Below are positions 5,796 through 53,984 of a DNA stretch of 64,000 nucleotides, piece after piece (the first letter of the stretch is position 1; each line of letters begins with the position of its first letter). The stretch comes from Allostella sp. ATCC 35155 (lineage in GTDB: Bacteria > Pseudomonadota > Alphaproteobacteria > ATCC43930 > Allostellaceae). The stretch covers positions 3,964,001-4,028,000 of the forward strand of contig AP019701.1 of NCBI GenBank assembly GCA_006738865.1. The letters run 5' to 3'. Position numbers and translations under genes: made by a program. The notes under the pieces were generated by a model. The model did not search any database and had not been told where the DNA came from. It was given only the letters and a program-made list of their open reading frames with translations.

Positions 5796-7418
5796 CTAAC
5801 CATCCGCCTCGACAACCCCCAGCTTCCGCAGTGCCGCCGCCTCGCGCAGCAGCGCCGCGGCGCGGCCGGCGGGCAGCAGGGGCGCCATCTCCCGGACCGT
5901 GGCCGGGCCGGCGGCGAGACGGTCGAGGATGGCACGGCGCTCGGCGGGAGTGAGGAACAGCCGGTCGTCCTGCGGCAGGCCGGCCCATTGCCGCCGCGCC
6001 GCCGCATCGACGCCCGCGACGAGGCGCAGGCGGGTCGTTGCGGTGAGGTGCTCGGTCGGGTAGTGGGCGAAGGCGACCCAGGGGTCGGGACGGGCGCCGC
6101 GCGGCGGCGGCGCCTCGGGCTTTGCGGCGCGCCGTCGTGCGCCGAGTTCGTCCCAGAGGTCGAGATAGCGGCGCACGATGCCGGGCCAGTCGTAGGCCTG
6201 CGCCCGCTCGCGCCCGGCCGTGCCCATGCGGCGGCGGAGGTCGGGATCGTCGGCGAGGCGGCCGATGCGGTCGGCGGCGACGGCGGCATCGACCGCGACC
6301 GTGGCGGCGACCGCGCCGAGGAAGGCCCCCTGGTTCAGGCGGCCGGCCTCGTGCGCATGGATGAAGGCCTCGCCGCCGGCGCCGGCCGGCATCGCCGTCG
6401 GCACCAGGAAGCCGTCGACGCCCTCGCGCACCGTCTCGCGATAGCCGTCCCAGTCGCTGGCGACGACCGGCAGGCCGGCCGCCATCGCCTCCAGCGGCGT
6501 CAGGCCGAACGTCTCCTGCACATTGTCGACGAGGGAGACGAAGATGTCGGCGGCCGACCAGATGCCGCGCCGCACCACCGGGTCGCTGCCGTCGACCACC
6601 CGCTGCGGCACCGAGGGGCAGAGCGCCGCGGCCCCTTCCGTGAACTGCGCCCGGTCGGCCTCGCCGGCGAACCAGCCGGCCAGCACCAGCACGAGGCGGC
6701 GGCCGGGGCGAGCCTGCGCCGCCGCTTCGGCCGCCAGCCACATCGGCAGCGGGTTGGCCTTGCGGGCAGCGCTGAGGCGGCCGACGAAGAGCAGGACCAC
6801 ATCCTCCTCGGCAAGGCCGAGTTCGGCCCGCCAGCGCGTGCGTTCGTCGGCCGAGGCCGCCATGGCGGCGGCGTCGACGCCGAGCGGGATCACCGGCAGC
6901 AGCGGTTCGGGCGGTGCGGCCGCCGCGCCCAGGCGCCAGGCGAGATAGTCGCGCTCGCCCGCCATCACCGCCGCGACGGTCGCGCGCACCGCCTGCGACG
7001 GGCAGACCAGCGCGTCCCAGGGCATCACCGGCGCCGTCACCAGCGCCGCCAGCGCCTCGAAGGCGGCGAGCGAGGCGACGGCGTGGGCCACGCCGGTCAG
7101 CGACCAGGCATGGGCGCCGCGGCGGTGGCGCTCCCATGCCGCCTGGGCGAGCGAGGGGTTCGGCAGGTGCAGCAGGCCGGCGCGCTCCGCCGTCGTCGGA
7201 CGCACGCGATCGGGCGCGCCCAGCGCCCGCAGCACGGCCGCGACCTGGTCCGCCCCGGCACCGCTCGCCGTCACGACCGGCAGCGCCGGACGGCCGGAAT
7301 GCCGCGCGAGCGCCGCCAGGAAGGCCGAGGACGCCACCGTGGCGCCGAAGGGCTTGCCCGCCCCCGGCACCTCGTAGAGCTGCGGATGGAAGAGGATGGC
7401 GGCGTCGGCCGCCGTCAT
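5796..7418 (-). CDS. GT-B glycosyltransferase (family 4-like) with C-terminal winged-helix-like extension
   Basis: The 540-residue protein contains the nucleotide-sugar half of a family 4 glycosyltransferase: FVGRLSAARK at the start of the second Rossmann domain and the E-x7-E motif in QETFGLTPLEAMAAGLPVV. A tail of roughly 70 residues (FLTPAERRAILDRLAAG...LLREAAALRKLGVVE) looks like a small winged-helix fold and is not part of ordinary glycosyltransferases. There is no signal peptide or membrane segment, so it acts in the cytoplasm or at the inner membrane. Its start overlaps the stop of the upstream flavoprotein gene, an odd operon partner. Acceptor and sugar are unknown. Confidence 0.75.
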   Translation of the reverse strand: MTAADAAILFHPQLYEVPGAGKPFGATVASSAFLAALARHSGRPALPVVTASGAGADQVAAVLRALGAPDRVRPTTAERAGLLHLPNPSLAQAAWERHRRGAHAWSLTGVAHAVASLAAFEALAALVTAPVMPWDALVCPSQAVRATVAAVMAGERDYLAWRLGAAAAPPEPLLPVIPLGVDAAAMAASADERTRWRAELGLAEEDVVLLFVGRLSAARKANPLPMWLAAEAAAQARPGRRLVLVLAGWFAGEADRAQFTEGAAALCPSVPQRVVDGSDPVVRRGIWSAADIFVSLVDNVQETFGLTPLEAMAAGLPVVASDWDGYRETVREGVDGFLVPTAMPAGAGGEAFIHAHEAGRLNQGAFLGAVAATVAVDAAVAADRIGRLADDPDLRRRMGTAGRERAQAYDWPGIVRRYLDLWDELGARRRAAKPEAPPPRGARPDPWVAFAHYPTEHLTATTRLRLVAGVDAAARRQWAGLPQDDRLFLTPAERRAILDRLAAGPATVREMAPLLPAGRAAALLREAAALRKLGVVEADG

Positions 7419-8632
7419 GCCGCCCTGGCCGACTTGGCCGCCACGGTCGCATCGAGCGGCGGGAAGCGGTCCGGCGTCAGGGCGGCGACGTCGAGGCGCG
7501 GCGCCCGGCCGGTGGCGAGGTCGGCGATGATGTCGCCGGTCACGACCGAGAGGCAGATGCCGTCGCCCTCGTGCCCGGTCGCGACCAGGAGGTTGGGGAT
7601 GCGGCCGCTGCGGCCGACGATCGGCAGCTTGTCGGGCACGTAGGGGCGCAGGCCCGCGAAGGAGCGCAGCATCGGCACGCGCGCCAGCGCCGGCAGGCGG
7701 CGCACCGCCTCGCGCACGATGGCCGCCACGCCCTCGGGCGTCGTCCGCCGGTCATAGCCGACGAAGGCGCGGGTCGAGCCGATGATGCACTGGCCAAGGG
7801 CGTTCACCTCGAGACAGAAGCCATGGCCGATGCGGACCAGCGGGTCGGACGAGCGCAGGGCGGCGTCCGGGTCGGCCTTGGCGAGGAGGTAGTTGGCCGA
7901 CATCAGGTAGTGGGTGGCGATGCCCGGCGTCCGCGCCGTCACCACCAGCTCGCCGCGGCGCGGGATCACCGGCAGGTCGAGCCCGAGCATGCGGCCGAGG
8001 TCGCCCGACCAGACGCCGGCGGCGAAGACGAACTGCTCCGCCCGCACCCGCCCGCGGCTGGTGTCGACGGAAAGGATGCGGTCGCCCGCCATCTCGAAGC
8101 CGGTCGGCTCGGCCTCCCACAGGGTCGCGGCACCCCGGTCGACGGCGCGCGCCACTTGGCCCAGCGCCATCAGGTAGGGGCTGACGATCGCCTCGCCCGG
8201 GCAGCGGAAGGCGCCGTGGAGGGCCGGCGAGAGGTTCGGCTCGAGCGCCAGCATCGCCGCGCGGTCGAGATGGTGCATGTCGAAGCCGTAGGAGCGCACG
8301 CCCGCCGCCCGCTCCTCCAGCTGGTCCAGGGTCACGGGGTCCTCGACCAGCAGCAGGCCGCCGCAGGTGCGGTAGTCGACGTCGCGGCCGATGTCGGCGA
8401 CGACTTCGGGGTAGAGCCGCTTGCTCTCGGCCGCCATCGCCATGACGAGGCCGGGCTTCTTGGAGGAGATCGAGACATAGCCGTCGCAGGCGCCGGACGT
8501 GCCGGCGGTCGGCATCGCCCGGTCGATCAGCACCACCCGCCGGCCCCGCCTGGCGAGGTGCCAGGCGCAGGCGGCGCCGACGATCCCGGCGCCCAGGATG
8601 GCGATCTCGGCTTCGACGGCCGGTTGCGTCAT
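7415..8632 (-). CDS. FAD-dependent D-amino-acid oxidase/dehydrogenase family protein (catalytic subunit)
   Basis: This 405-residue flavoprotein of the DAO superfamily opens with the FAD-binding ILGAGIVGAACAWHLARRG at residues 10-28 and ends with GRIPNLLVATGHEGDGI, the typical second FAD contact. It resembles the SoxB/OoxB/HcnC-type subunits that oxidise imino or amino acids (sarcosine, octopine, hydroxyproline). The ATG at 8632 is preceded by GGAGAG and begins just before the FAD motif. The gene faces away from the 8721-10453 pair, which encodes the two other expected subunits, so the three probably form one membrane-linked or soluble dehydrogenase; the substrate is not known. Confidence 0.8.
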   Translation of the reverse strand: MTQPAVEAEIAILGAGIVGAACAWHLARRGRRVVLIDRAMPTAGTSGACDGYVSISSKKPGLVMAMAAESKRLYPEVVADIGRDVDYRTCGGLLLVEDPVTLDQLEERAAGVRSYGFDMHHLDRAAMLALEPNLSPALHGAFRCPGEAIVSPYLMALGQVARAVDRGAATLWEAEPTGFEMAGDRILSVDTSRGRVRAEQFVFAAGVWSGDLGRMLGLDLPVIPRRGELVVTARTPGIATHYLMSANYLLAKADPDAALRSSDPLVRIGHGFCLEVNALGQCIIGSTRAFVGYDRRTTPEGVAAIVREAVRRLPALARVPMLRSFAGLRPYVPDKLPIVGRSGRIPNLLVATGHEGDGICLSVVTGDIIADLATGRAPRLDVAALTPDRFPPLDATVAAKSARAA

Positions 8633-8720
8633 GGATCGGCTCTCCTCGCTCCGCGCTGCGCCATCGGTAGCGCCGAAGATGCTGGCACGGCAAGCGCTTG
8701 CGCAGGGCAAGGGGCCATCT
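8633..8720. promoter_or_regulatory. Divergent promoter region for the three-subunit dehydrogenase
   Basis: These 88 bp separate the catalytic FAD subunit gene (minus) from the [2Fe-2S] and FAD/NAD subunit genes (plus), so promoters for both sides must lie here or nearby. I could not identify convincing -35/-10 hexamers. The only clear signal is the ribosome site AAGGGG at about 8709-8714, six bases before the ATG at 8721. Confidence 0.5.
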
Positions 8721-9071
8721 ATGCTGGCCGGGCGACCCAACCCCAGGCTGACCTGCGCCTTGTACCCGTCCTCCCCTGCACCCGCTGCACCGCCGACGCG
8801 CTTCCGCCGGCTCGACCCTGACGGCCGCCTCGTCCCCTTGACCGTCGACGGCCAAGCACTCGAGCTGCCCGAAGGCATGCCGCTCGCCGCCGCCCTGCTG
8901 ACGCACGGCTTCGACGCTTTCCACCGCTCGGTGCGGCGCGCGGAGCCGCGCGGCCCCTGGTGCCTGATGGGCACCTGCCTGCAATGCATCGCGACCGTCG
9001 ACGGCCGGCCCCAGGTCCGCACCTGCCGCACCCCCGTCGCGGCGGGCATGGTGGTGACGCTGGGATCATGA
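8721..9071 (+). CDS. Small [2Fe-2S] ferredoxin-like subunit (SoxA N-terminal/HcnA type)
   Basis: The 116-residue protein has the plant-type [2Fe-2S] pattern C-x4-C-x2-C...C in PWCLMGTCLQC and VRTC. It corresponds to the N-terminal domain of sarcosine oxidase alpha and to separately encoded subunits of opine or hydroxyproline dehydrogenases, where it passes electrons between flavins. The ATG at 8721 has AAGGGG six bases upstream; an alternative TTG at 8760 would shorten it by 13 residues. The stop overlaps the next start (ATGA), fitting strict co-translation with its partner. Confidence 0.8.
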   Translation: MLAGRPNPRLTCALYPSSPAPAAPPTRFRRLDPDGRLVPLTVDGQALELPEGMPLAAALLTHGFDAFHRSVRRAEPRGPWCLMGTCLQCIATVDGRPQVRTCRTPVAAGMVVTLGS

Positions 9072-10453
9072 GACCGCCCGCCGAGACGATCGTCGTCGGC
9101 GCCGGACCGGCGGGCGCCGCGGCGGCGCTGGCGCTGGCCGAGGCCGACCTGGCCGTAACCCTGCTCGACGACAATACCCGCGCCGGCGGCCAGGTGTTCC
9201 GCACCGGCGGCCGGACCCGCCGCGGCCCCGGCTGGGATCCGCGTGGGGCGGAACTGCGCGCGCGCATCGCGGCGTCGCCGGCCATCGACCATCGGCCGGA
9301 CCATGAGGTGGTCGCCATCCATGCCGACCGCTCCCTCTGGGTCCGCGACGCCGACGGGCGGGTCGTCCGCATGGCGCCGCGGATGCTGCTGGCGGCGCCG
9401 GGCGCGGTCGAGATCGCCGTGCCGGTGCCGGGCTGGCAGCGGCCGGGCGTCTTCGGCCTGGGCGGGCTGCAACTGCTGCTGAAGGGCGCCGGCACGGTGC
9501 CGACGGGCCCGGTGGTCCTGGCCGGCGCGGGGCCCCTGCTGTACCTGCTGGCGGCGCAGTTTCGCGCCGCGCGCGTGCCGGTCGCGGCCGTAATCGACGC
9601 CGCCGCGCGGCCCGGCTTCTCGACCCTGCTCGGCCTCGCGGCGCAGCCGTCGCTGCTGGCGGCCGGCATCGGCCATCGCTGGCGCCTGCTGTGGGGCGGC
9701 ATCCCGGTGCTGCGGCGCCATGCGGTGACCGCGGTCGATGGCGACCGCAGCGGCGTCACCGCCGTCGAGGTCGCCCGCGTCGACGAGAACTGGCGCCCCC
9801 TGCCGGGCGGGCGCCGCCGCATCGCTGCCCGCACGCTCGGCCTCGGCTTCGGCGTGCGTCCCAACATCGAGCTGACGCGCCTCGCCGGCGCCGAGCACGG
9901 CTGGGACACCGGCCTCGGCGGCTGGTTCCCGAAACGGACCGACGCGCTGGAGACGACGGTGCCGGGCCTCTTCGCCGCCGGCGACGGGGCCGGCGTGCTG
10001 GGCGTCGACAATGCGCTCGACGAGGGGATCATCGCTGCGGCGGCCATCGCGCGGCGCCTCGACCGCGGCGGCATCCTCGACTGGCGGGCCGCGGCCGCCG
10101 CCGGGCGTCGGCAGCGCCGCCGCGTCTTCCGCGAGGCGCTGGCCGACTGGTCGGCCCTGCGTCCCGGCATCTTCGCCGCCGCCGACGCCGAAACCGTCGT
10201 CTGCCGCTGCGAGGACGTGACGGCGGGCGAGATCGCCGAGGCCGTGCGCCTCGGCTATCGCGCGCCGGGCCCGCTCAAGATGGCGACACGGGCGGGGATG
10301 GGCCTCTGCCAGGGCCGGGTCTGTGCCACGGCCGTGCAGCACCTGCTGGCCGAAGCGGCCGGCATCGACCCCGGCGCCGTGCCGCCGCCCAGCGTCCGCG
10401 CGCCCCTGCGCCCGGTGCCGCTGGACGGTTTCACGGAGATGGCGGCGGACTGA
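9068..10453 (+). CDS. FAD/NAD(P)-binding oxidoreductase with BFD-like [2Fe-2S] domain (SoxA/OoxA/HcnB type)
   Basis: The 461-residue protein has an N-terminal FAD motif, VVGAGPAGAAAALALAEA, a second dinucleotide fold near residues 145-165 (VVLAGAGPLLYLLAAQF), the FAD-closing FAAGDGAGVLG, and a C-terminal bacterioferritin-associated-ferredoxin-like cluster site with C-x-C (CRCEDVT) and C-x4-C (CQGRVC). This is the alpha-like subunit of heteromeric amine or opine dehydrogenases. With the 8721 ferredoxin and the divergent 7415-8632 flavoprotein it completes a three-part enzyme that oxidises an amino or imino acid. No transporter that would hint at the substrate is adjacent. Confidence 0.85.
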   Translation: MRPPAETIVVGAGPAGAAAALALAEADLAVTLLDDNTRAGGQVFRTGGRTRRGPGWDPRGAELRARIAASPAIDHRPDHEVVAIHADRSLWVRDADGRVVRMAPRMLLAAPGAVEIAVPVPGWQRPGVFGLGGLQLLLKGAGTVPTGPVVLAGAGPLLYLLAAQFRAARVPVAAVIDAAARPGFSTLLGLAAQPSLLAAGIGHRWRLLWGGIPVLRRHAVTAVDGDRSGVTAVEVARVDENWRPLPGGRRRIAARTLGLGFGVRPNIELTRLAGAEHGWDTGLGGWFPKRTDALETTVPGLFAAGDGAGVLGVDNALDEGIIAAAAIARRLDRGGILDWRAAAAAGRRQRRRVFREALADWSALRPGIFAAADAETVVCRCEDVTAGEIAEAVRLGYRAPGPLKMATRAGMGLCQGRVCATAVQHLLAEAAGIDPGAVPPPSVRAPLRPVPLDGFTEMAAD

Positions 10454-40092: not shown

Positions 40093-41043
40093 TCAGATGA
40101 ACACGAAATCCTGCGGTCGGAATTCCTCGGGGAACTGGTTGCGGATCACCAGCGTGTTGCCGTTGCCGAGATCGAATCCGGTGCCCCCGCCCCCGGCGTC
40201 GTAGGCCCGCGCCATCAGGTCGGAGAAGTCGAAGATCCCCGATCCGTTGATGTTCCGCTCCATGACCACGCGGTCGGCATCCTCGAAGATGAAGTCCGAG
40301 ATCTCGTCATAGGCGGAGTTGCTGAAGATGACGAAGTCGTCGGCACCGAAGCCGCCATAAAGTGTGTCGTCCCAGGTGCCGCCGTCGAGCGTGTCGGCGC
40401 CGGCGCCACCGTTCAGGACATCGAAGCCCGGTCCGCCGAAGAGGTAGTCGCGGCCCAGGCCGCCATAGAGGTTGTCGTCGCCGAGGTCGCCGCGGATGTC
40501 GTCGTCGCCGTCCTCGCCATGGACGTCGTCATGGTCCTGGCCGCCGAACATGGTGTCGTTGCCGAACCCGCCATAGACGAGGTCGTTGCCGATATTGCCG
40601 TTGACGTGCCAGTCGCTGCCGTCGTCGCCGAAGACGACGTCGTTGTCCTGGCCGCCGCGCACGAAGTCGGCGCCGAAGCTGCCATATACGGTGTCGGCCC
40701 CGGTGTTTCCGTTCAGCGCATCGTCGCCGCCATCACCGAACAGCAGGTCGCTGCCGTCGCCGCCGAAGCCGTGGTCGTTCCCCTCGCCGCCGACCAGCGT
40801 GTCGTTGCCCGAACCGAAGAAGTCGACATTGCTGCCGCCGAACATGGTGTCGGCACCGGGGCCGCCGAAGATGAGGTCGGGGCCGGAATTCCCCATCAGG
40901 AAATCCTGGTCCCAGCCGCCGTCGATGGTGTCGGCTCCGCCCTCGCCGCGAATGAGGTCGTTGGCCTCGAAGCCGGGCATCGAATCGTCGCCATTCGTGC
41001 CGATGAGGGTGTCGGCGCCGGGGCCGCCGGGGATATAGGCCAT
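40093..41043 (-). CDS. RTX calcium-binding repeat protein
   Basis: The 316-residue protein is almost entirely RTX nonapeptides (GGxGxDxxx), for example GGEGNDHGFGGDGSDLLFGDGGDD, which bind calcium as a parallel beta-roll outside the cell. The C-terminal about 70 residues (DDFVIFSNSAYDEISDFIFEDADRV...NGNTLVIRNQFPEEF) form a serralysin-like secretion domain. There is no Sec signal, as expected for type I secretion, but no ABC exporter is in the window. It begins at ATG 41043. A block around SDWHVNGN is nearly the same as in the protein at 42839-43939, so the two are paralogues. Confidence 0.9.
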   Translation of the reverse strand: MAYIPGGPGADTLIGTNGDDSMPGFEANDLIRGEGGADTIDGGWDQDFLMGNSGPDLIFGGPGADTMFGGSNVDFFGSGNDTLVGGEGNDHGFGGDGSDLLFGDGGDDALNGNTGADTVYGSFGADFVRGGQDNDVVFGDDGSDWHVNGNIGNDLVYGGFGNDTMFGGQDHDDVHGEDGDDDIRGDLGDDNLYGGLGRDYLFGGPGFDVLNGGAGADTLDGGTWDDTLYGGFGADDFVIFSNSAYDEISDFIFEDADRVVMERNINGSGIFDFSDLMARAYDAGGGGTGFDLGNGNTLVIRNQFPEEFRPQDFVFI

Positions 41044-41112
41044 GAATGCTGCTCCTGCCTTGCAGTATGGGATTGCCTGCCAAACGAGCAAGATGGCGGG
41101 ACGTTCCCGGCC

Positions 41113-42838: not shown

Positions 42839-43939
42839 CTACGACAGGATCGCGAAGTCCGCGGCGTCGAGAACGGCCGGTGCGGTGTCGAGGATCAGCA
42901 GCGCGTTGCCGCCGCCGAGGTCGAGCAGTGACCCCTCGGCATGGACCGAAATGCGTGCCAGCAGTTCGCCGGCATCGCGCACACCCGAACCGTTGACGTT
43001 CTCCACGACCAGGATGCGGTCGATCCCCGGTTCGAAGTCGACGATGCGATCGAAGCCGACGGCATGGCCGAAGACCAGCCGGTCCGAACCTTCCCCCCCA
43101 TACAGCACGTCGTCGCCGAGATCGCCGAACAGCGTGTCCGCGCCGCCCCCGCCATCGAGGACATCGTTGCCCTGGCCGCCGCGCACGACATCGTCGCCGG
43201 TGCCGCCGGCCACATAGTCGTCGCCGAGGTTGCCGTTGACGTGCCAGTCGCCGCCGTCGTCCCCGAACACCAGGTCGTCGCCCTGGCCGCCACGGACGAA
43301 GTCCGCCCCCGGGCCGCCATAGACGACGTCGTCGCCCGTGTTGCCGTTGACATCGTCGTCGCCTTCCCCGCCCAGCACGCTGTCCGACCCGTCGCCGGCG
43401 ATGATCTGGTCCGCGCCGTCGCCGCCGACGAGCGTGTCGTCGCCGGAATCGGCGATGCCGGTGTCCTGTCCCCCGAAGATGGTGTCGTCGCCGGCCCCGC
43501 CATCGACGAAATCGTTGTCCGGTCCGGCCAGGACATAGTCCGCCCCGCCGGCCGACAGGATCGAATCCCCGTCCGGGCCGCCGAGGATCCAGTCGTCGCC
43601 GTCGCCGCCGACGAAGGTGTCCTGCCCCGTCCAACCCTGAAGGTTCGAGCCGAGCGCGCTGCCGAAGAGGAGGTCGTCGCCGGCATCGCCGAAGATGATG
43701 ACCCCGTCGGCATCCTGCTCGGTCTCCGAGCCGGCCCAGATCGTGTCCGCCCCCTCGCCGCCGCCGAGCTGGTCGTAGCCGGGGCCGCCCGCGATGCGGT
43801 CGTCGCCGTCGCGTCCCTCGATGGAGTCGTCACCGTCTCCGCCGAACAGGGTGTCGTTGCCGCCGAGCCCGTCGATGCTGTCCTCGCCGTCGCCGCCCGC
43901 CAGGGAGTCGGCGCCATCGGTGCCAGTGATCACGGCCAT
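42839..43939 (-). CDS. RTX calcium-binding repeat protein
   Basis: The 366-residue protein consists of about 30 RTX-type repeats such as [20 protein letters not shown] and [20 protein letters not shown], followed by a C-terminal secretion region ([32 protein letters not shown]). It begins at ATG 43939 with GAGAGG upstream. The lack of a Sec signal fits type I secretion. It is a paralogue of the 40093-41043 protein, sharing the GDWHVNGN block, yet the two are separated by unrelated metabolic genes. Confidence 0.9.
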
Positions 43940-44067
43940 ACCAGCCTCTCCATCGGTTGCCTGACGCTCTGACGCGGGCACTATCGCAGAGGTTCAACAG
44001 GAGGCGGAGTGTTGACGCCGGACGGGTACGGGCGGCGGGGGTGGGCGCGGACGCCGGAGGCGCTATC

Positions 44068-50450: not shown

Positions 50451-50479
50451 GAGCCGGCGTCCCGGTTAGCAGGAGACCT

Positions 50480-50788
50480 TCACGCCGCCTTCGGCAACGG
50501 CCGCGCCCGCTCGACCCGTTCGCGCTGCTCGGGCGTGTTCATCACGGTCCAGAGATCGTTGCGTCGCTGCGTATTGAGCCAGAAGTCCGCGCTGTTGCCG
50601 AACACCCGCGCCAGGATCAGGGCGGTCGCCGCGGTGACCGCCCGGCGATTGCCGCACAACTCGTTGACGTGCTTGCGCGGCACCCCCATCGCCTCGGCCA
50701 AGGCCGCCTGCGTGAGCCCCATTGGACGCATAAACTCCTCCGTCAGGATTTCTCCGACCGTCGCCGGCTTGCGCTTGGTGGTCCACAT
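50480..50788 (-). CDS. higA: HigA-family antitoxin (XRE)
   Basis: The 102-residue protein matches HigA closely: GEILTEEFMRPMGLTQAALAEAMGVPRKHVNELCGNRRAVTAATALILARVFGNSADFWLNTQRRNDLW. It is a helix-turn-helix antitoxin that normally neutralises HigB and represses the higBA operon. Here the gene that should precede it is reduced to a fragment (50843-50884), so it is an orphan. A 7-bp inverted repeat GGTTGCC-TCGC-GGCAACC (50860-50877), upstream of the start, could be its operator but overlaps that fragment. Confidence 0.9.
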   Translation of the reverse strand: MWTTKRKPATVGEILTEEFMRPMGLTQAALAEAMGVPRKHVNELCGNRRAVTAATALILARVFGNSADFWLNTQRRNDLWTVMNTPEQRERVERARPLPKAA

Positions 50789-50842
50789 AGCGGCTTCTCC
50801 GTCATCGATAGCTGTGATCGTGTCGAACCCGAAGAAACCGCC

Positions 50843-50884
50843 TCACAGCTTCTCGGCGTGGTTGCCTCGCGGCAACCGCGAGTC
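50843..50884 (-). pseudogene. HigB toxin remnant
   Basis: The minus strand reads DSRLPRGNHAEKL and then TGA. This matches the internal HigB segment that normally reads like DLR.PPGNRLEKLKGDR. The residues before it and the entire C-terminal half (usually ending VEIVDYH just before higA) are missing or scrambled. The position directly upstream of higA is where higB belongs. The match is short, so the call is moderate. Confidence 0.5.
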
Positions 50885-50933
50885 CCGACCGGTCGCCCGT
50901 GTCGCGTGCTGTGTCGGTTGCCGCGTCGTTCCC

Positions 50934-51203
50934 TCAGGCGGCTTGGCGCAGGCGATCCATCTCGCGAGCGAAGGCCGTGCGGATCGCGGCGGCCTCGGCT
51001 TCCGGCAGCCATCGGGTCATGTTCGGCACCACCGCGCTCCACATCCGCGCGTCCCGCTCGGAAAGGGGCATCGTCTCGGCAGCGCGCAGGGTGCCGAGAA
51101 GCCCGTCCAGCCGTCCCCGGATCGTCTCGGGATCAGGCGTCGTGGCACGCTGCGGCACGGACATGCGTCCGTCGCCGAACAGACTGCCCTGAGCGTCAGT
51201 CAT
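50934..51203 (-). CDS. Small hypothetical protein at the 3' end of the restriction-modification operon
   Basis: The 89-residue charged helical protein (MTDAQGSLFGDGRMS...TIRGRLDGLLGTLRAAETMPLSERDARMWSAVVPNM) has no domain I can name. Its start lies 8 bp inside the 3' end of the type ISP-like gene, so it is translated with it. The pattern LSERDARMW...LPEAEAAAIRTAFAREMDRL suggests a small DNA- or protein-binding helical bundle; this is only an impression. Confidence 0.65.
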   Translation of the reverse strand: MTDAQGSLFGDGRMSVPQRATTPDPETIRGRLDGLLGTLRAAETMPLSERDARMWSAVVPNMTRWLPEAEAAAIRTAFAREMDRLRQAA

Positions 51204-52455
51204 CAATGGGTTCCTTCTGAGTGGGCCACATCGCTTCCCGCGTGAGTGGCGCGTCCAAAGCGTCGAAGAGGATGGTATCCGCCTGCCCGAACAGGTCAAC
51301 GAGATCGGCAATCCGCCCGCAGACGTCCCGGAAGGCATCGAACAGCGCCAGGTCCACGGTCTGACCTTCACGGCCGTCCAGCCAGCGCCGCAGGACGGGA
51401 TAGCGGCTGACCTCGAATCCCCACAGGGTGGCGGGCAGGCCCTCCACCCGACCCGATCCGTCCGCGCAGAGGGTCAGGCAGGGACCGTCCGGCTCGCCTG
51501 CGTCCAGCACGGTGCCGGGACTCGGCACGGTGGCGAGCTGGACGAAAGCCGGATCGCCCGCGGCGGCGGGGGCCTGGGCGAATGTCTGGATGGCGCGGAT
51601 CCGTGCGCCGAGCCCGGCGGCGCGCTGAAACACGCCGTGGTCGGCCGGGAACGGGACGTGCGGGAACGTGTCCTCCAGATCTTCGGCAAAGCGCAGGGTA
51701 TAGGACCGTGCCGAGAGGAGGCAGAGGATCGCGTCGAAGACCTCTTCCGGAGCGATCGTCGCGCCGTAGAGCGCGGTCAGACCGGCCAGCAATCCGGATG
51801 AAAGGTTGAAGCCCGCCGATGCGGGGCGGCGGTCATGGAGCGGAAAGGCGTAGCCGCCATTGTTGCCTCGTATGGCGTGGTAATCCGGCAGAAGACTGTG
51901 GCACCAAACAGCGGGACCGGCATTGGTGCCGCCGGGAAGGGCATAGAAACCAACGTTGTCGGCACCCCAAACCCTCTGCAGCTCAGGCCCGGGGCGGTTG
52001 AGAAGGCGCAAGTCGTTGTAGAACCAACGCAGGTCGCAGGGCCGATAAGCCAACCGTCTCAGAAGTGCCGGATCATGGGGCGGAAGACCGGATTGAACCA
52101 GAAATTCATCCACCTTCCGAACAAGCCTATCTCGGTCTGCATCAACGAAGATCGGATCCCTGCCGCTTTTCATGCCGGACTTGCTGAACCCGAAGCACTC
52201 CCGCAGGCTCGGCCATTCGCCGTTGCCGAACGGATGCGGACGGAAGTCTTCCAGACCCTTGCGGGGCACCGGCACGGCATTGGGCAGCCGTCCGGCATCC
52301 GATCCGTCTGCAAGCCAGTGCAGTTTGGCCGGGCGGCCGAATACGCCCTCGGCCCAGGCGTCGAGATAGCGCACCTCGGCGGGCCGGCCCGCGCGCGATC
52401 CATCGGCGACGGCGATGGTGATGGCGACGCCGACCTGAATGTCGAACACGTTCAT
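51196..52455 (-). CDS. C-terminal (target-recognition) part of a type ISP-like restriction-modification enzyme
   Basis: The 419-residue product begins MNVFDIQVGVAITIAVADG, which in type ISP/LlaGI-like proteins is an internal segment after the methylase motifs. The rest (YRPCDLRWFYNDLRLLNRPGPEL; GNNGGYAFPLHD; FDAILCLLSARSYTLRFAEDLEDTFPHVPFPAD) matches their C-terminal DNA-recognition region. Its ATG overlaps the methylase gene stop by 4 bp. As a stand-alone protein it lacks any catalytic domain, so it either works in trans with the upstream product or is the back half of a deleted gene. Confidence 0.75.
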   Translation of the reverse strand: MNVFDIQVGVAITIAVADGSRAGRPAEVRYLDAWAEGVFGRPAKLHWLADGSDAGRLPNAVPVPRKGLEDFRPHPFGNGEWPSLRECFGFSKSGMKSGRDPIFVDADRDRLVRKVDEFLVQSGLPPHDPALLRRLAYRPCDLRWFYNDLRLLNRPGPELQRVWGADNVGFYALPGGTNAGPAVWCHSLLPDYHAIRGNNGGYAFPLHDRRPASAGFNLSSGLLAGLTALYGATIAPEEVFDAILCLLSARSYTLRFAEDLEDTFPHVPFPADHGVFQRAAGLGARIRAIQTFAQAPAAAGDPAFVQLATVPSPGTVLDAGEPDGPCLTLCADGSGRVEGLPATLWGFEVSRYPVLRRWLDGREGQTVDLALFDAFRDVCGRIADLVDLFGQADTILFDALDAPLTREAMWPTQKEPIDD

Positions 52456-53834
52456 GTCGCCTTCGATGCCTGCGCGGGCACCGCGCCGCCCGGGTTCCGC
52501 AACGTGTGGTGCAGCCGGTAGTGCGCGACGGCGTATGGGCCGACCAGCAGTTCCAGACCGAACAGACGGCTCGCCAGATCCCGCAGCTCCAATGCGGCCC
52601 GGCCAGCACCACCCGACGCCGCGCCATCGCGGACCCGTTCCGCCACGCCCAGCAGGAAGGTTCCGGTCCCCGTGGCCGGGTCGAGGATGGTCAACGCCGG
52701 GTCGCGAAGACCGGTCAGGCCCAGATCGTCGCGCGCCACGCGGTCCAGTGCGCCGACCATGAAGCGGACCACCTCCACGGGCGTGAAGTAGACCCCGTGG
52801 CGGTCCCGAGCTTCGGGGTCGAAGACCGACAGGAAGTCCTCGTAGAAGTAAAGGATCGGGTCCGGACGACCGCGCCGCACGGCCAGGATCGCAGGGTCGA
52901 AGCTGTTCACCGTGTCGAGCAGAACATCGAAGCCAATACCGACCACGTCGAGAATCTCCGCCTGCGTGAGGACGCGCAGCGCCGTGCGCATCAGCGGATG
53001 TTCCGGTGGCATGTGCTGGTAGGCGGTCGTATCGACCGGGCGGCCCCCGCCCTCGCGGACGAGAAGCAGGCCGAAGGCAAGCGTCTGGGCGAAAGCCGCC
53101 GAGAACAGCAAGTCGAAGTCCCGCGCCGGGTATCCCCCTGCCTCGGGATGGGCATAGAGAACCGTCTGGAACTCCGCATGGGCATCGAGAAGCGGATCGG
53201 TCGCTATGCCGCCAGCCCGCAGTTCGGCCAGCCGGTCCCGCACGATGCCCCGCACCAGGCGCGAGGAATGCGCCAAGAGCGCGGCCAGATGCCTCGCGTC
53301 CCGCGCGGCAGGCTGCTGGCCCGCGCCTGCCGCAAGTCGCTCCACGAGGGCGATCAGCGCGGAGGGATCAATCCCGCGGATCAGACGCTCGGCCGCGGGA
53401 TCGGATTGCGCGGGATCGAGCGCCCGCTCCGGCACGATCTGTGCGGTGCCCCGTTCCTCGTCGCCCTCGAACAGGAACAGGTCGATGAAGTTGGACGTGC
53501 TCCAGCAGCGCAGCTCCTTCAATCGCTCGAACTGGCGCTTGTCATGCGGAATGCGCCAGCGAGCTGGGTTGGCGGACTTGTCGAGGGCCTTCAGCTCCAC
53601 GAAGGCGCGCGGCGGCGCACCTGTGCGCACCAGGGCGATGTCCGGCCGGCCAAGGCCAGGGTTTGCAAACTCCGGCACTACGACCAGACCGGGGCCGCCC
53701 GGAACCCCGGTCAGAAGCCGCTCCAGAAGCTCCTGAAAGGCCGGGGCCAGCGCCGGTTCGGACACGGCCGGATGTGCCCGGCGCAGGTCGCGGATGCGCT
53801 GTGCGTAGTCCAGAAGGTGGTCGATCACCGGCAT
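52452..53834 (-). CDS. N-terminal part of a type ISP-like enzyme: nuclease plus incomplete N6-adenine methylase
   Basis: The 460-residue protein has a PD-(D/E)xK nuclease-like segment near residues 45-90 (LGRPDIALVRTG and AFVELKALDK), a helical linker, and the start of an N6-adenine methylase: RHGVYFTPVEVVRFMV and motif I LDPATGTGTFLLGVAERV. It then reads LFGLELLVGPYAVAHYRLHHTL and stops after about 15 more residues. The catalytic NPPY motif (IV) that should follow is absent here and in the next gene. It is therefore probably a broken methylase with a possibly intact nuclease. Confidence 0.75.
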   Translation of the reverse strand: MPVIDHLLDYAQRIRDLRRAHPAVSEPALAPAFQELLERLLTGVPGGPGLVVVPEFANPGLGRPDIALVRTGAPPRAFVELKALDKSANPARWRIPHDKRQFERLKELRCWSTSNFIDLFLFEGDEERGTAQIVPERALDPAQSDPAAERLIRGIDPSALIALVERLAAGAGQQPAARDARHLAALLAHSSRLVRGIVRDRLAELRAGGIATDPLLDAHAEFQTVLYAHPEAGGYPARDFDLLFSAAFAQTLAFGLLLVREGGGRPVDTTAYQHMPPEHPLMRTALRVLTQAEILDVVGIGFDVLLDTVNSFDPAILAVRRGRPDPILYFYEDFLSVFDPEARDRHGVYFTPVEVVRFMVGALDRVARDDLGLTGLRDPALTILDPATGTGTFLLGVAERVRDGAASGGAGRAALELRDLASRLFGLELLVGPYAVAHYRLHHTLRNPGGAVPAQASKAT

Positions 53835-53840
53835 GGCGGC

Positions 53841-53984
53841 TCACCGTCCAGGAAGCGGGTGAAGGAACCCTGTCGGCTGCCGGTCCTCCATGAACAGCTC
53901 CCGACGTTTGGCCATGTTGCGCCAGTGGTCGGCGTTCGTCTTGGCCCTGGCCATCCTTGCTTGGCTGATGCGACAGACGATCAC
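53841..53984 (-). CDS. Possible 47-residue protein between putA and the restriction-modification genes
   Basis: A frame starting with GTG at 53984 overlaps the putA stop (GTGA) and ends 7 bp before the methylase start. It encodes a basic peptide, ISQARMARAKTNADHWRNMAKRREL, ending QPTGFLHPLPGR; an ATG at 53954 is also possible. It may be a true small gene of the defence operon or the end of a longer deleted gene. No family recognised. Confidence 0.35.
   Translation of the reverse strand: MIVCRISQARMARAKTNADHWRNMAKRRELFMEDRQPTGFLHPLPGR

Follow-up and report, generated by a model that had tools for sequence, protein, structure and literature searches.

A TaqII/TspGWI-like restriction-methylase gene very probably broken by a recent internal deletion in Allostella sp. 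ATCC 35155

The restriction enzymes TaqII and TspGWI carry, in this order, a PD-(D/E)xK nuclease, a helical region, a methylase with the motifs DPA.GTG and NPPY, and a C-terminal recognition region, with no translocase, and the PD-(D/E)xK motif of TspGWI has been confirmed by mutation (PMC2700111). In their recognition domains they resemble type ISP enzymes, and the 1105-aa protein of the Thermus aquaticus YT-1 plasmid p61 corresponds to TaqII by its length, its plasmid and the preceding parA/parB genes (PMC5587805). When the NPPY motif of TspGWI was changed to APPY (N473A), methylation was gone and less than 0.8% of cleavage was kept, and Escherichia coli expressing this mutant still filamented (PMC3968444).

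We analysed a 64,000-nt stretch of the genome of Allostella sp. ATCC 35155 (assembly GCA_006738865.1, contig AP019701.1, positions 3,964,001 to 4,028,000; hereafter the window, in whose own positions all coordinates are given). The assembly is a single 5.34-Mb contig, 98.9% complete, and no second copy of the enzyme gene was found in the 5.34-Mb genome. On the minus strand, a 460-aa ORF (53834 to 52452, the 5' fragment) and a 419-aa ORF (52455 to 51196, the 3' fragment) overlap by the letters ATGA, and both the coordinates (51196 to 53834) and the overlap given by the initial annotation were reproduced. In place of a single polypeptide with both activities, there are two ORFs in different frames. 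The 5' fragment comprises the PD-(D/E)xK nuclease, the helical region and the first part of the methylase, with motif I (LDPATGTGTFLL), the PD...ELK nuclease motif and VAHYRL all inside it; it matches N6_Mtase (Pfam, 1.7e-7) and the PADLOC type IIG model PDLC03631 (3.9e-62). Its DPATGTG (motif I, DPA(x)GTG) occupies residues 385–391, and its PD...ExK residues (P64 D65 ... E80 L K82) are intact, invariant among relatives and alignable with the TaqII counterpart. The 3' fragment starts at NVFDIQVGVAI, immediately downstream of a GAAGG-like stretch, and contains the end of the methylase domain and the Type_ISP_C specificity domain (Pfam PF18135, 1.9e-35). Both translations were checked for NPPY and neither holds it, in agreement with the earlier observation of a missing methylase motif beside a retained nuclease motif.

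Intact relatives share with TaqII, TaqIII and TspGWI the N-terminal PD-(D/E)xK nuclease, the helical region, DPA.GTG, NPPY and the C-terminal recognition domain, whereas the window copy lacks NPPY and about 166 methylase residues and lies in two frames. One of the closer of these relatives, from the Rhodospirillales MAG PLM2.Bin51 (L016), aligns with the p61 protein over 1041 positions at 31% identity (E 5e-105), and intact relatives also align with PDB 7lo5 (1029 aa, E 6e-33). The type ISP enzymes LlaGI and LlaBIII have an alignable methylase region (4xqk, 9.5e-26; 5ffj, 4.5e-21) and Type_ISP_C in common with the family, but they are about 1400–1580 aa long, whereas the family members are about 1050 aa and have no SF2 helicase/translocase or coupler. 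In the intact copies L014, L016 and L010 (about 1050 aa), Pfam found only N6_Mtase, Eco57I and Type_ISP_C, and no SF2 helicase-like ATPase/translocase between nuclease and methylase. The class proposed by the initial annotation, type ISP, does not apply in the strict sense, since intact relatives lack a helicase/translocase domain and can be aligned with TaqII from one end to the other; it is an annotation label here, and arises because recognition domains of the TaqII kind resemble those of type ISP enzymes. The domain content thus points to a TaqII/TspGWI-like (Thermus-family, type IIC/IIG) single-chain restriction-methylase gene, of which the window copy appears to be a broken descendant and not a working member.

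A second scan of genome contigs, together with viral contigs, gave 25 homologue records, which were reduced to 21 distinct loci by removing identical records. Sixteen of the 21 are intact, each a single ORF of about 1050–1088 aa with NPPY at residue ~494–521; identity to the window copy reaches 76–80% in the first half for L014–L017, L033 and L034, and about 65% (N-half) and 52–53% (C-half) for L009 and L010. The other five are broken at other places, though some of these lesions may be sequencing errors: L029, L030 and L031 have frameshifts, in L025 the sequence diverges beyond NPPY, close to a contig end, and L018 (Rhodosalinus halophilus, 7001–10132) has a TAG at codon 291 with the nuclease-bearing 5' fragment remaining, which would be an independent loss within the same enzyme family. 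A homologue family with the same split and without NPPY was sought, and the split was found in none of the 25 records or 21 distinct loci from genome and viral contigs. The class and phylum genome samples contained a few relatives or none, and none with this split; no other strong match occurred in the sample of 398 phylum genomes, no relatives were found elsewhere in the order sample, and the first genome-contig scan, with the C-half alone as query, returned no matches. At nearly all loci, the matches of both halves to relatives reach E-values of 1e-107 or below, a homology far beyond chance. A second indel of about 19 aa in the C-half was weighed as a sign of further decay but discarded, because the shorter form also occurs in intact L016 and in L018.

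Alignment with intact relatives explains how the two frames arose. L016 resembles the window copy at 79% (N) and 66% (C) identity but is one unbroken 1052-aa ORF with NPPY at residue 510; by blastn, positions 1–1345 of the window gene correspond to L016 1–1348, and positions 1347–2602 to L016 1849–3110. The blastn comparison with L014–L017 and L033–L035 places the deletion junction at 52487–52491 on the minus strand, where a net ~499 nt are gone out of frame (~499 against L014–L016 and L033–L035; either 499 or 494 with other relatives), a size not divisible by three. In relatives, the sequences matching the two halves share one frame and lie about 540 nt further apart, and in L009 and L010 about 190 residues separate AVAHYRLHH from the VF(D/N)I(Q/K)VG segment. 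The missing part amounts to about 166–169 residues, within the 150–200 estimated earlier, and corresponds to residues ~448–616 of intact relatives, NPPY included; the window copy lacks roughly half of the methylase fold. The second frame remains open over the junction and is homologous upstream of the ATG (RRGARAGIEGD|MNVFD against RRGIRAGIERD|MGVFD in L016); the split therefore goes back to a deletion that broke the frame at about 52488, and the ATG was inherited as an internal Met codon, a Met being present at the corresponding codon in L016, L018, L033 and L034. The final ~12–15 codons of the 460-aa ORF are out-of-frame nonsense, and its TGA is the first stop in the shifted N frame. The ATGA overlap, which had been described as a tidy junction, is fortuitous and no evolved operon junction, because its ATG is inherited and its TGA out of frame. 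Since relatives have short GC-rich CCGG/CGGCG repeats at both deletion ends, a short-homology deletion at such repeats is plausible, although the actual ancestral sequence may differ from that of the relatives.

The repeats at the deletion ends could also be expected if the living strain had an intact ~1050-aa enzyme and the ~499 nt had been dropped from the consensus at a GC-rich repeat, a reading that the lack of further lesions in either half would fit as well. Nevertheless, the genome is one contig of high completeness, a clean 499-nt loss is atypical of assembly errors, and relatives have independent lesions, so that such an artefact is improbable. Taken as a whole, it is very probable that the locus is a recent deletion pseudogene of the known TaqII/TspGWI-like kind. 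A horizontally acquired enzyme gene of about 1050 aa, together with its conserved 89-aa downstream gene, was inserted between a glutathione S-transferase (GST) gene and putA, as the empty congener site shows. A loss of ~499 nt inside the gene, probably through short homologies, then took the methylase centre including NPPY and shifted the frame, as the alignments show. After a short run of nonsense codons the first half stops, and the second would be made at most by chance re-initiation at the old ATG.

The deletion leaves little trace of subsequent decay. In a codon model, dN/dS on the window branch was 0.050 against a background of 0.044 for the N-half and 0.075 against 0.087 for the C-half, with no excess on the window branch and both halves far from significance. 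There are no further stops or frameshifts in either half, and with 879 codons free of any stop, neutral change above 5.4% per site is unlikely. In a branch model with a neutral branch end, values above about 0.1 for the number of neutral substitutions per codon (~3% per site) were rejected for the N-half, and both halves jointly limit neutral evolution after the deletion to roughly 2% per site; synonymous distances are large, and these figures are bounds and not dates. The loss is judged recent because neither half has decayed further: the deletion is recent, as tested by an upper bound, or, as the less likely alternative, constraint on the halves persists. The age and constraint data are compatible with both, and nothing else favours constraint.

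Continued constraint would be expected if the halves had been repurposed as two polypeptides by ATGA-coupled translation, a standalone nuclease and a DNA-binding/recognition subunit acting in trans or on modified DNA. The GAAGG-like stretch just upstream of the overlap, the intact PD...ExK residues and a window-branch dN/dS equal to background, with no relaxed-constraint signal, could be cited for such a pair. However, the split occurs in no homologue, the ATG is older than the split as an internal codon, nonsense codons end the first half, the methylase fold is reduced by about half, and a recent event explains the apparent constraint equally well. A repurposed pair is therefore highly improbable, and there is hardly any likelihood that both fragments are made and useful, for example with the recognition fragment guiding a methylase-free nuclease in trans.

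The initial annotation had held that a nuclease without its protective methylase should be lethal unless inactive or repurposed. This claim is unsupported because cleavage in the family depends on the methylase/recognition part, as illustrated by the trace cleavage of TspGWI N473A, and nuclease-bearing 5' ends also persist in relatives with other lesions; the paradox thus appears weak. Of the two ways out that it offered, inactivity is favoured here, while repurposing finds no homologue with the split. With 166–169 residues gone and the nuclease severed from the recognition domain, an inactive product is therefore expected: methylation and site-specific cleavage, judged by the biochemistry of the family, would both be lost, since the core of the methylase fold is missing and the nuclease is separated from its recognition domain, and both halves are almost certainly non-working, although a low residual nuclease activity of the fragment is possible. 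A variant of the pseudogene reading, in which the leftover nuclease does mild harm and the deletion forms a step towards purging a costly restriction system, could draw on the filamentation caused by the NPPY mutant's residual cleavage (PMC3968444) and on several relatives broken at differing places, but the fragment has no recognition domain, which is needed for cut placement, and the sequence gives no readable sign of damage; this variant is unlikely. The locus represents an unremarkable gene loss of fairly recent date, confined to this genome, and not an unprotected nuclease, so that what looked like one is a recent deletion allele for which neither a lethality paradox nor a new mechanism is needed.

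The gene lies in an insertion of about 3.5 kb (50452–53973) that two closed congener genomes lack, GST and putA being neighbours there with 137–208 bp between the homologous stretches; the insertion's GC content is 0.677 against 0.68–0.74 in the flanks. Between GST and putA, the block contains the broken enzyme, an 89-aa ORF and an orphan HigA. The 89-aa ORF (50934–51203, minus strand), with no assigned function and no Pfam or NCBIfam match, overlaps the end of the 3' fragment and trails the enzyme gene in 23 of the 25 homologue records, L016 among them, its homologues sharing 44–73% identity; it could possibly be a partner or regulator of the restriction enzyme. Comparison gave no support for homology between it and the ORF that follows TaqII. 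The HigA-family antitoxin (50480–50788, minus strand; TIGR02607, 6.5e-30) was not found at the other homologue loci, and HigB or its remnants, sought by eye upstream of it, were not found. Elsewhere in the window, two repeat-rich proteins of the GGxGxD type (40093–41091 and 42839–43981, minus strand) resemble, by eye, calcium-binding RTX repeats.

Among the relatives, L014/L037, L018/L038, L033 and L034/L035 have the enzyme gene and the 89-aa gene between terminase large subunit and portal genes, and there the enzyme looks like a cargo of prophages or capsid-forming satellites. No terminase of this phage-like element type was found in the genome of the window. The carriage of close relatives between terminase and portal genes is of wider interest for the movement of such enzymes. 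The enzyme-carrying phage-like elements also hold a capsid gene, two of them with a Toprim/DUF5906 primase, and the copy with a nonsense codon (L018/L038) is among these carriers.
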